This document shows, piece after piece, positions 19,056 through 26,376 of a stretch of 64,000 nt of DNA. The notes beneath the pieces were generated by a model. The model was given only the letters and a program-made list of their open reading frames with translations, ran no database searches and had not been told where the DNA came from. The translations under genes and the position numbers were made by a program. This stretch comes from Paenibacillus sp. PvR098 (GTDB lineage Bacteria > Bacillota > Bacilli > Paenibacillales > NBRC-103111). Location: contig NZ_JAFIBU010000001.1 of assembly GCF_017833255.1 (NCBI RefSeq), positions 434,001 to 498,000 of the forward strand, read 5' to 3'. Position 1 is the first letter of the stretch. Each line of letters opens with the position of its first letter.

Positions 19056-19400
19056 TTACAGAAGCTCGGCGCCGATCAAATCGGGAAGCCTTACCCACGT
19101 GCTGCCTTCGCTGCAGCGCACCTTCATCCGCTGCAGGTGCAGGTCTACGTGCAGGATCACGCAGTCGATCGACGTGCGTTCGCCGTTATCATACAGCGTT
19201 ATTCGCAGCGCTGCGGCTTCATGGAGCGCGATGCCGAGCGTCTGCCCAAGCTCCTCAAGCCCCTGTTCGTCGAGTGTTGGCTTCTCTTGTACGCCGAGCT
19301 CGCGGCGGTGCCGGAGCAGCCGCTCCTTATGCTCGGGCAGCATCATGCGGGAGGATTCCCAGAGGATGTTTTTGCCTGGGGTCAACTTGTTATCCTTCAT
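19056..19400 (-). CDS. YolD-like protein
   Basis: A 114-residue protein of the YolD family, recognised from its start KLTPGKNILWESSRMMLPEHKERL. YolD-like genes accompany Y-family polymerases (UvrX/YqjW) in Bacillus genomes and prophages; the function is unknown, perhaps a polymerase accessory factor. Its ATG overlaps the stop of the polymerase gene by four bases, so the two form one SOS-controlled unit. Confidence 0.88.
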   Translation of the reverse strand: MKDNKLTPGKNILWESSRMMLPEHKERLLRHRRELGVQEKPTLDEQGLEELGQTLGIALHEAAALRITLYDNGERTSIDCVILHVDLHLQRMKVRCSEGSTWVRLPDLIGAELL

Positions 19401-20683
19401 TTATAGTGTCCTCCGATTTTCATGGATCTCTCCGTGGCTTGGCCGGCTGCAGTTAGCGAGGAAGCCCGCACGATTGCTGCGCTGCCATATCGGTCTTTTA
19501 TAAAGTCAGTCACTTTCTCCAAAGACCTGGTTTTTTCTTGATCCTCGAATAAGGTAAGCTGATAATCCTGATCGTTCGTCAGCTGGCTTAAGGTTACTCC
19601 GAGGCGCCGTACCGGTATCTGGTCCCAAAACTGATAAAAAAGCTTCTTTACTGCTTTGAATACCGTGTTCGTATGGTTCGTAGGGTCAGGCATCTTCATT
19701 TGGCGCGAGAATCCGATCGGCGCTTCGTAAGGGCTGCACATGCAGTTGACTGTAACTACAGAGCCCATATATCCTTTGCGCCGGCAGTCGCGGCAGACTT
19801 CCTCCGTGAGCTCAAGCAGTATGGTGTCTACCTCTGTTTGTTTCGTGTAGTCTTTGGGTAAAGTCATCATGTGACCAACGGATTTGGGCGGTGCATCAAA
19901 GGTTCTGGGGGTGACATGGCTCTCATCTAAGCCGTTGGCCGTTCGCCACATCACTTCGGCATGAATATCGGATTGTTTGCCAAAGTAGGCACGGAATTTA
20001 TCTTTAAGGCGCGGCAGCGGCGTTCTTGCGATATCGCCGATGGTTTTCATGCCAAGTCGAGTAAAATGACCTGTCATACGGGAGCCGACTCCGAACATCT
20101 TATTTACGGGTTGCGGCCACAGCAAGGCTTCGACTTCTGAAGCCGGCAGGGTAAAGATGCCGCTCTCATTCTTTTTTGCCCAGATATCGGTTGCAATTTT
20201 GGCCAGCATTTTATTTGAGCTTATTCCGATTCTTACCCATACCCCGGTTTGACTTAGGATTTTCTGTTGAATCGATCGTGCAATCGTTACAGGGTCTCCA
20301 AAAATGGACAGACTGGAAGAAACATCCAAAAATTGCTCATCGATACTAAAGACCTCAACAAGGTCCGTATATTCTTCATATATTTTTGTGATCATGAGCG
20401 AAACATCGATATAATGCTGCATGCGGGGACGTACGACGACCAGATCCGGGCACTTGCTCAGAGCTTCGCCCAGCCGTTCGGCTGTGGTCACTCCATAGCT
20501 TTTGGCAATAGGACAAGCGGCCAGAATGATTCCAGACCTGCGTGCGGGATCTCCGGCCACAGCAACAGGTTTATTCTTGTATTCCGGGTGATCTGCCTTT
20601 TCTACGCTGGCATAAAACGATTGACAGTCCGCCAGCATGATGGTGCGCTTGCTCTTGTTTGAAGTTGAAACGGAAGTCAGCAT
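19397..20683 (-). CDS. Y-family translesion DNA polymerase (UvrX/YqjW-like)
   Basis: A 428-residue error-prone polymerase for bypass of DNA damage. The palm motif MLADCQSFYASVEKA (metal-binding Asp and steric-gate region) is near residue 16 and the catalytic FSIDEQFLDVS near 110. A helix-hairpin-helix thumb (FGVGSRMTGHFTRLGMKTIGDIA) and a little-finger domain follow. The UvrX group is distinguished from DinB by QSFYASVEKA with HPEYKNKPVAVAGD and by its YolD partner. The ATG after GAGGGTG is preferred to one ten codons upstream, which lies on a LexA box. Confidence 0.93.
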   Translation of the reverse strand: MLTSVSTSNKSKRTIMLADCQSFYASVEKADHPEYKNKPVAVAGDPARRSGIILAACPIAKSYGVTTAERLGEALSKCPDLVVVRPRMQHYIDVSLMITKIYEEYTDLVEVFSIDEQFLDVSSSLSIFGDPVTIARSIQQKILSQTGVWVRIGISSNKMLAKIATDIWAKKNESGIFTLPASEVEALLWPQPVNKMFGVGSRMTGHFTRLGMKTIGDIARTPLPRLKDKFRAYFGKQSDIHAEVMWRTANGLDESHVTPRTFDAPPKSVGHMMTLPKDYTKQTEVDTILLELTEEVCRDCRRKGYMGSVVTVNCMCSPYEAPIGFSRQMKMPDPTNHTNTVFKAVKKLFYQFWDQIPVRRLGVTLSQLTNDQDYQLTLFEDQEKTRSLEKVTDFIKDRYGSAAIVRASSLTAAGQATERSMKIGGHYK

Positions 20684-20705
20684 ATGATGTTCACCCTCGC
20701 TTATA

Positions 20706-20757
20706 GAACGCATGTTCTTATTGTACTTAGAATAGCGAACAAATATTCGTATTTCAA
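20706..20757 (-). promoter_or_regulatory. SOS promoter of the polymerase-yolD genes with two LexA boxes
   Basis: On the minus strand TTGAAA (20757-20752) and TATTCT (20734-20729) are 17 bp apart. One LexA box, CGAATATTTGTTCG (20736-20749), lies in the spacer and differs from GAAC-N4-GTTC at one base. A second, the perfect GAACGCATGTTC (20706-20717), lies just past the -10 over the transcript start. Two operators on one promoter imply tight repression by LexA until DNA damage. Confidence 0.85.
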
Positions 20758-23258: not shown

Positions 23259-23444
23259 TTATTTTTCCTTACCATGATCCATAAAAATAGATATGACAAC
23301 GAGCACAGCGCTGATTCCGTTTGCAATTTCGTTTATCGTTTCATCGGGAATATTCATTCCCATGCTATCCAAAGCGAGCTTGACTGCGCCAAGAACACCC
23401 AAAATTAATCCGGGTTGTTTCAGTTTCGTAAGCATATGCTTCAT
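23259..23444 (-). CDS. Holin-like small membrane protein
   Basis: A 61-residue protein with two hydrophobic helices (PGLILGVLGAVKLAL and ISAVLVVISIFMDHG) separated by an INEIANGISA turn. This pattern is common in small phage holins of Bacillus-group phages. No endolysin lies beside it, so it is either a prophage remnant or a host protein with a holin fold. AGGAAAGGGG precedes the ATG; an in-frame ATG three codons later is also possible. Confidence 0.65.
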   Translation of the reverse strand: MKHMLTKLKQPGLILGVLGAVKLALDSMGMNIPDETINEIANGISAVLVVISIFMDHGKEK

Positions 23445-24642: not shown

Positions 24643-24683
24643 AATAATGAAGGGCCCCATCTCGCGACGAGGTCCCTTCATGG
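24643..24683. repeat. 41-bp palindromic repeat, copy A
   Basis: Matches copy B at 26132-26172 in 36 of 41 bases, same orientation, with an identical GGGCCCC and TCTCGCGACGAGG core. Each copy folds as an inverted repeat. The pair brackets the ymaF-like and LexA-like genes. Confidence 0.75.
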
Positions 24684-24954
24684 AATATAAGCATTAGTTC
24701 TATGCGACTCTATCTTCCCGTGGCCAAAGGTATATAAGTATTTAACAGGAATCTGGGCAATAAGTAGAGCTGGCCGACATGAAGCTGGCAATACAGCGAC
24801 AGATTCAAGCGCTGGACATGGGTTATAAAGGAAATGATTCAGGAGGTTTGAGGTTCAGGAAGAGGACTTTAAATAATGGTTCAGTTGCCCAACACATCAC
24901 GATCCAACTTTTAATAAAATATCCTTGAAGTTAACCGACTTTAAGGAGATGAAT

Positions 24955-25311
24955 TTGTCATTGAAAAAACAAGTATCAAGAAGAAAGATAACAAGAAAGC
25001 GGCAGACGCATGTACATGAATTTGAAGGCAGTACTAAATTAGCAGAACAAGGTGCAGATAGACATAATCATCGATTTGCAGGTGTTACCGGTCAAGTGAT
25101 TCCTAAAGGTAACAGTCATGTCCATGAAATAGACCTCACGAATACGGATTTTATTAACCATTTTCATAATCTCAAAAAAATAAGGACAGGACCTGCCATT
25201 CCTGTTGGTAATGGCAAGCATGTACATTTCGTAACAGGAATGACTACGTTAAATGATGGACATAGACATCAATTTAATTTTGCAACTTTAATTCAAAAAC
25301 CGCTTGTATAG
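24955..25311 (+). CDS. YmaF-like His-rich protein
   Basis: A 118-residue protein full of HxH motifs in regular positions: THVHEF, RHNHRF, SHVHEI, NHFHNL, KHVHFV and HRHQFNF. This is the pattern of the YmaF family, whose role is unknown; the His pairs suggest metal binding. The TTG at 24955 lies six bases after AAGGAG; in-frame codons further upstream lack a ribosome site. It is followed by two tandem hairpins. Confidence 0.75.
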   Translation: MSLKKQVSRRKITRKRQTHVHEFEGSTKLAEQGADRHNHRFAGVTGQVIPKGNSHVHEIDLTNTDFINHFHNLKKIRTGPAIPVGNGKHVHFVTGMTTLNDGHRHQFNFATLIQKPLV

Positions 25312-25611: not shown

Positions 25612-25640
25612 TTGAAAAAGAGAACTAATGTTCTTATATT
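25612..25640 (+). promoter_or_regulatory. Promoter with a LexA/SOS box in the spacer
   Basis: TTGAAA and TATATT are 17 bp apart, and the spacer holds the palindrome AGAACTAATGTTCT, i.e. GAAC-N4-GTTC (25622-25633). This is the same geometry as the SOS promoter of the polymerase gene at 20.7 kb. The +1 would be near 25647, 22 bases before the TTG of the LexA-like gene. Confidence 0.75.
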
Positions 25641-25668
25641 GAAATGAGTAAGATTGGAGGGGTTAATC

Positions 25669-25932
25669 TTGCTTGAAGATATAGAGCGAAAAGTTTTGCG
25701 AATCCTTGGTAACTATTCTAGTGTCCGCCGGAGAATGCCAACCCTTAAAGAACTTCGAATTAAGACTGGCCGAAGTCAACGCGGGGTATTATTAGTTCTG
25801 TCTACCTTAGAAAAGGAAGGCTATATATTGTGGAAGGAAGATGATCCTGAGAACATCGTTATCATAGAAGCTTGGGAAAGAAGATCCAGTTTGCCCCCCA
25901 CAAGATTTAATCCTGATCGATTTATGGATTAA
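25669..25932 (+). CDS. LexA DNA-binding-domain-like protein without peptidase domain
   Basis: An 87-residue winged-helix protein. The helices LEDIERKVLRILGNY, PTLKELRIKTG and SQRGVLLVLSTLEKEGYI followed by a short wing (ENIVIIEAW) parallel the N-terminal DNA-binding domain of LexA (PxxREI, STVHxHLxxLExKGxI, RAIEI). The C-terminal self-cleaving Ser/Lys domain of LexA (about 120 residues) is absent; the protein ends in a short Pro-rich tail. The TTG start lies six bases after GGAGGGG. The promoter has a perfect LexA half-site pair, so the gene is probably SOS-induced and may compete with or mimic LexA. A generic phage-type repressor is the alternative. Confidence 0.65.
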   Translation: MLEDIERKVLRILGNYSSVRRRMPTLKELRIKTGRSQRGVLLVLSTLEKEGYILWKEDDPENIVIIEAWERRSSLPPTRFNPDRFMD

Positions 25933-26376
25933 TAAGAGCTAAATTAAGGAGTTTTGGCAATTGAATCGTTTGAGTTTTTGCGGTCAAGCTAGAGAGATAA
26001 TGTTTCCTATACATAGAATTCGGTCCCCATTTCGTCCCCAACACTATTTTTTAAATGTGTTACTATAGAGAATAAAAAACTTTTTTGTACAGAAAAACCC
26101 TTTAAAATAAAGGGTTTAGAGAAGTCGTTACAATAATTCAGGGCCCCGTCTCGCGACGAGGCCCTTTCATGGGAGAGGAGAAACCGGACGAAGAGCTTAT
26201 GGGGAACGTAAGTCTTCTCCGCGGTTGTCTACGACATTTTCGGATGTCGATGATATAAGGATGACCTTTTACGAACAAAGATATACATGAGAGGAAAAAA
26301 ATTTTGGATTTTTTGTGCAAAAGATTTCGTTTATGGTACGATAGCATTACTACACAGGTAAAGGAAGGCTGTAAGA
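25933..26376. other. Gene-free stretch before rsmD
   Basis: No gene is supported. It holds an AT-rich hairpin AAACCCTTT/AAGGGTTT (26095-26117), copy B of the 41-bp repeat, and a candidate rsmD promoter: TTGTGC (26313-26318) and TACGAT (26337-26342), 18 bp apart. Confidence 0.5.
26132..26172. repeat. 41-bp palindromic repeat, copy B
   Basis: Direct copy of the element at 24643-24683 with five mismatches; the palindromic core GGGCCCCGTCTCGCGACGAGGCC could act as a terminator, but no T run follows. Confidence 0.75.

Follow-up and report, generated by a model that had tools for sequence, protein, structure and literature searches.

Several described systems come close to the gene studied here. 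The gp6 protein of the Bacillus thuringiensis phage GIL01 is reported as a truncated LexA homologue that binds its own palindrome, acts on the late promoter and activates late genes after damage (PMC6182141). In PafBC, DriD, CapW and BrxR, a winged helix is associated with a WYL barrel. According to PMC6789036, an HTH precedes the WYL domain within one chain in more than 90% of WYL sequences. PafBC and DriD are reported to respond to DNA damage (PMC6789036, PMC12340889), and the WYL domain of DriD to bind ssDNA (PMC12340889).

The gene described here belongs to Paenibacillus sp. PvR098 and lies in a stretch of 64,000 nucleotides (positions 434001-498000 of the 4.70 Mb genome, called the window below). 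Its product is, like gp6, a small LexA-like winged helix without the peptidase, and gp6 is made after damage and binds a palindrome rather than LexA boxes. However, gp6 is reported to be 44% identical to the host LexA (PMC6182141), whereas the window protein matches LexA weakly. With LexA itself (TIGR00498) it has in common the winged-helix fold of the N-terminal half, but it is devoid of the peptidase half and the LexA recognition residues are not kept. The association of a winged helix with a WYL protein recalls the WYL regulators; yet here the two are separate genes, with the WYL gene first, behind a LexA-type box, and none lies beside the window copy. As in the SOS operons with YolD, many homologues have YolD next to the gene and an SOS-type box in front, although the flanks collected showed no Y-family polymerase and the winged-helix gene is there instead. 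The sequences suggest that the family is a variant of the LexA-like accessory regulators of mobile elements, associated with WYL-superfamily proteins. On balance we think it probable that the gene encodes a LexA-repressed DNA-binding regulator derived from a mobile element, with targets of its own as in gp6, and often placed beside a WYL-superfamily protein.

Table 1. Features of the locus and its surroundings, in window positions
Feature	Position	Strand	Basis
Y-family polymerase gene with YolD after it and two SOS-type boxes in front	19056-20713	-	
5' part of the ylbH leader, duplicated imperfectly over 41 bp	24643..24683	+	
YmaF-family protein (PF12788, E 1.3e-36)	24925-25308	+	
-35 hexamer TTGAAA	25612..25617	+	read from sequence
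LexA-type (SOS) box GAACTAATGTTC within the promoter spacer	25622..25633	+	sequence; position and design kept in homologues
-10 hexamer TATATT, spacer of 17 bases	25635..25640	+	read from sequence
Shine-Dalgarno-like GGAGGGG	25656..25662	+	read from sequence
Winged-helix protein, 87 residues, intact frame from TTG (25669) to a stop ending at 25932; phrog_3502 family, LexA-like predicted fold	25669..25932	+	
Element TTCGGTCCCCATTTCGTCCCCAACA, common to P. rigui downstream of the same gene (4 mismatches)	26019..26043	+	
ylbH (rsmD) leader RNA (RF00516), chromosomal boundary	26086..26224	+	

The promoter that the initial annotation had described, TTGAAA-N17-TATATT with the palindrome GAACTAATGTTC in its spacer, was read directly in the sequence (Table 1). 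Its likeness to the promoter at 20.7 kb was also correctly seen, because one of the boxes there, CGAATATTTGTTCG (20749-20736, minus strand), lies inside the spacer of a promoter formed by TTGAAA (20757-20752), 17 bases and TATTCT (20734-20729) on the minus strand. A perfect box, GAACGCATGTTC, is found at 20706-20717, further downstream of that promoter. Since this second box overlaps the start of the longest frame, the real start of the polymerase gene is probably the ATG at 20683. The host lexA is preceded by a perfect box of this type, which ends 47 bp ahead of the start of the lexA match. By count alone the 12-bp box pattern is not significant. It occurs twice in the window, where shuffling gives a mean of 1.01 (at least two in 27 of 100 shuffles), and 67 times in the genome against 81 for a reversed control pattern; with both counts at the control level, box enrichment was dropped as evidence by itself.

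We therefore take the box to be real because homologues keep it and not because of these counts. A total of 234 loci were collected: 30 from relatives, 66 from viral contigs, 35 from named genomes, 100 from further places and 3 from named records of phages or plasmids. From the search of relatives, most matches that were partial, contained a stop or were unlisted were left out, and the search of 398 Bacilli genomes contributed only four places. Five loci of fewer than 60 residues were dropped, and clustering of the remaining 229 at 90% left 142, the window copy included. An exact box was located within 300 bp upstream in 66 of these 142 homologues, against 4/134 downstream and 3/142 far upstream control stretches, loci too short for a stretch being excluded from it. 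When one mismatch was allowed the figure rose to 113/142 (112/141 with the window copy excluded), compared to 16/134 and 20/142 in the respective controls. By source, these 113 correspond to 37 of 42 viral homologues, 16 of 17 from named genomes, one of two from plasmids and 59 of 81 from other genomes. The placement is conserved as well, as 43 of 72 exact boxes fall in a -35/-10 spacer, where 0.2 would be expected from shuffled flanks, and a second box often follows 23 bp further on (18 pairs). In P. larvae phage BN12 an exact and a one-mismatch box, 26 bp apart, precede the WYL and winged-helix genes. The box is present in 60/72 homologues with no upstream partner gene, 49/54 with a small WYL protein, 9/12 with YolD and 1/4 with a LexA-type domain, for search lengths of 150, 330, 600 and 330 bp, respectively. 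The SOS-box promoter proposed by the initial annotation is thus conserved, and the sequences support a winged-helix promoter that would be under LexA-type control.

The same annotation had described the product as a free-standing LexA-like winged helix without the self-cleavage domain, and the predicted structure agrees with this. The AlphaFold model, built with 59 sequences, shows a winged helix (pLDDT 78) to about residue 65 followed by a tail (pLDDT about 50), and in 87 residues the peptidase half is absent. The nine top PDB folds were all LexA (best E 2.2e-4, TM 0.71); on the viral side, small LexA-like domains of phages and one Tectiviridae domain are among the nearest. In sequence, the best family match was phrog_3502 (function unassigned there; E 7.1e-14, residues 1-72), and the single-sequence resemblance to LexA was weak: E 0.022 for Pfam, 0.0012 for TIGR00498 (score 18.5 against a cut-off of 110.95) and 0.0057 for PDB 3k2z, a LexA structure that the family profile reached at E 0.23 at best. 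Among the 59 members, Pfam matches were to HTH_36 (24), DnaD_N (22), MarR_2 (7) and LexA (5). A profile that mixed LexA with phage LexA-type domains gave an hhalign value of 97.5%, and this high value depends on the phage LexA-type rows: against four bacterial LexA alone it was 79.7%, below the 87.9% of the DnaD_N control, and it rose to 97.4% once the phage domains were added. In structure prediction and HMM searches, suggested earlier as a check, the resemblance to LexA is thus clear for the predicted fold, which is closest to LexA, and weak for the sequence, where members match HTH_36 or DnaD_N more often. Given these Pfam matches, the E value of 0.23 and the hhalign values, 'LexA-like' here refers to the predicted fold and makes no claim about ancestry. 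Conservation within the family peaks at D4, R7, K8, L10, R11, P24, G34, L44, L47 and W55, residues of helix 1 and the core. A search of an anti-phage library with the window protein gave no match.

The family is patchy in distribution. Homologues occur in 83 of 197 relatives and in 63 of 398 Bacilli genomes (17 of 146 genera), and they were also found in 66 viral-contig loci, 9 plasmid records, 20 records of P. larvae phages and, from named genomes of Paenibacillus and Brevibacillus, 35 loci. A protein search of a phage set without GIL01 retrieved Paenibacillus phages only. In the window the gene sits ahead of the rsmD leader. A tblastn search of 25 rsmD loci of the genus, 1.5 kb upstream of each, recovered the window copy and, in one further Paenibacillus genome, a diverged match (L278; 33%, E 1e-5) some 0.9 kb ahead of rsmD. 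An origin as a core gene at rsmD is disfavoured, as the search did not find the gene there in 23 of the 24 other same-genus genomes. A patchy gene that is carried on phages and plasmids and is rare upstream of rsmD looks more like an accessory gene than like a core regulator of SOS feedback.

The surroundings of the window copy are consistent with a gene left behind by a mobile element, as we infer from the sequence. The P. rigui gene (L117), 3 kb downstream of an endolysin gene, likewise immediately precedes rsmD; that of P. filicis (L119) stands 1.2 kb ahead of a serine recombinase gene. An element follows the gene in both the window and P. rigui, and its word GTCCCCA was missing ahead of rsmD from all seven other loci of the genus that were checked; this element may belong to the inserted DNA. 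No second copy of the P. rigui element, which would mark the other end of a prophage, turned up in 52 kb. The core pattern of the 41-bp leader duplicate was found at two places only in the genome, and the duplicate may be an integration scar. The duplicate (24643-24683) and 26131-26172 carry the ylbH leader hairpin as an imperfect repeat in direct orientation; they flank about 1.5 kb, and the flanked stretch holds the YmaF-family gene and the winged-helix gene. A small frame on the minus strand at 23259-23444 has weak holin matches (phrog_297, E 0.016) and is possibly a prophage trace.

The same surroundings could also be those of an inert remnant, the leftover edge of a lost element with no present role in this genome. 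The P. rigui gene at the same site downstream of an endolysin gene, the duplicated leader hairpin, the absence of an adjacent partner gene and a second, partial winged-helix match with an in-frame stop elsewhere in the genome (L152, G000:C1:34864-34992) all point in this direction. However, the frame, ribosome-binding site and SOS-type promoter are intact, and the protein is 58% identical to that of P. rigui and keeps the invariant residues of the family. We regard an inert remnant as somewhat unlikely. The alternatives weighed here overlap, and the likelihoods given to them are not meant to sum to one.

We looked at the genes adjoining the homologues with partner profiles built from the neighbours of the winged-helix family, the YolD of the window and the LexA of the genome. 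Directly upstream on the same strand, the 142 homologues have a mini-WYL protein of about 65 residues in 54 cases, YolD in 12, a LexA-type domain in 4 and none of these in 72. YolD lies downstream on the same strand, within 900 nt, in 53/142, and one locus has it on both sides. Altogether, 101/142 have WYL or YolD on either side and 39/142, the window copy included, have none of these partners: no mini-WYL, YolD or LexA-type partner gene adjoins the window copy. Among these partnerless copies 27/39 have a box within 150 bp, which was counted against the reading that we prefer, as was the low box frequency (1/4) where a LexA-type domain is the partner. In the PvR098 genome a search with the mini-WYL profile, run without a positive control, found nothing, and two YolD matches were obtained, one of them in the window at 19.06-19.40 kb.

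Nearest in fold to the mini-WYL model (pLDDT 92) are the WYL domains of PafBC, BrxR, CapW and DriD, with all Foldseek matches to WYL domains at E >0.001, and mini-WYL proteins match phrog_6785 in 19 of 19 alignment rows. One of them (L142:3668-3859) matches the PADLOC model RTasWYL-YodC (E 9.5e-8). Since hhalign found no similarity between mini-WYL and the YolD of the window, their common superfamily rests on PMC4012209, in which YolD is placed in the WYL superfamily, and on PMC6511836. HTH and WYL are separate genes in 54/142 homologues, unlike the one-chain arrangement of the WYL regulators. Among the matches listed in a search of the open-access literature, none described LexA-controlled genes that encode a winged helix and a WYL protein separately. 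LexA-type domains of about 72 residues were observed directly upstream in loci L049, L055, L063, L067, L071, L074, L077, L089, L173 and L174 (a shorter frame in L174), with an exact SOS-type box ahead of those of L063, L067, L071, L074, L077 and L089. The LexA-type upstream neighbours keep the LexA helix residues S39, S41 and T42 (alignment numbering). True free-standing LexA DNA-binding domains thus exist beside winged-helix genes, as a neighbour and not as the window protein itself. A C-terminal tail ending like YWTQY was seen in 24/35 homologues with YolD downstream and neither WYL nor YolD upstream, 18/39 partnerless copies and 1/12 with YolD upstream; a YolD docking motif in this tail is suggestive at most.

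The frequency of YolD upstream and downstream could also mean that the winged-helix protein is a translesion-synthesis accessory which, with YolD, aids a Y-family polymerase and does not regulate transcription. YolD has been proposed as the counterpart of UmuD (PMC6511836), and in the window the genes for a Y-family polymerase and YolD stand about 5 kb from the winged-helix gene. However, a tblastn search with the polymerase of the window, where the window served as positive control, revealed no Y-family polymerase operon around the homologues in the 234 loci, whose flanks are often only about 1.5 kb, and a winged helix with a variable recognition helix would suit a DNA-binding regulator better. 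We consider a translesion accessory unlikely.

Tum of phage 186 is an SOS-made antirepressor, and Tum-like genes are expected near prophage ends. A protein of this kind would inactivate a phage repressor and induce prophages. The LexA-type promoter of the winged-helix gene fits with this, as does its position on the 55 viral contigs longer than 30 kb: in 32 of them it is no more than 5 kb from a contig end, where about 11 would be expected for 50-kb contigs, with the limit that a contig end need not equal a prophage end. Trans-acting antirepressors have been described (PMC3121763). Yet the gene is found on plasmids too, and the conserved winged helix would point to a DNA target, which makes an antirepressor quite unlikely.

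The recognition helix bears on what the protein might bind. In LexA the helix reads ASSSTVHGHL in all 30 loci examined, of 57 matching genomes, whereas the window protein has RSQRGVLLVL and does not keep the recognition residues of the host LexA. Within the family few regions vary as much as this helix: the octapeptide at 36-43 (SQRGVLLV in the window) has 124 versions in 139 sequences, and mean entropy is 3.03 bits at seven helix positions (36-39, 41-43) against 1.72 at the other positions up to 70. With so many versions, one operator shared by the whole family is not expected. The proposal of the initial annotation, that the protein occupies LexA boxes after LexA cleavage and so shuts off or reshapes the SOS response, has in its favour the predicted LexA-like fold, the LexA-type promoter and a helix that resembles Thermotoga LexA in the alignment (RG and LL in common), but this helix, invariant in the LexA of relatives and variable in the family, disfavours competition for LexA boxes and, with the patchy gene and its rarity upstream of rsmD, makes the proposal very unlikely.

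A regulator derived from a mobile element and with its own targets is supported by the gene itself, its conserved promoter, the LexA-like predicted fold, the occurrence on mobile elements and the linked genes. The gene was probably brought by a mobile element, within a family of Paenibacillus, Brevibacillus and some other Bacilli. LexA would bind and repress the winged-helix promoter, and upon DNA damage LexA would be cleaved and the winged-helix protein made. The winged helix would most likely bind its own DNA sites and not LexA boxes, and by analogy with GIL01 gp6 it may switch phage or host promoters. We infer LexA binding, damage induction, DNA binding, the targets, activation rather than repression, and the formation of a complex. 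The mini-WYL or YolD neighbour may pair with the winged helix as a two-chain WYL regulator in which, where present, the WYL-type neighbour may be the sensing half, by analogy with the reported ssDNA binding of the DriD WYL domain. More tentatively, the family could be a mobile split WYL regulator, with two chains under LexA and production only upon loss of LexA, a LexA-like winged helix that is constant but for its variable reading surface, and a mini-WYL, YolD or genuine free-standing LexA DNA-binding domain as companion. It is possible, and again tentative, that such a split regulator would join both known bacterial ways to sense DNA damage.

If the preferred reading is true, mobile elements of Paenibacillus and Brevibacillus would carry second-wave SOS regulators whose DNA targets differ per copy. 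A single small gene would then make the damage-timed control of mobile elements open to test, and a role other than in polymerase complexes would become possible for YolD and solo WYL proteins.
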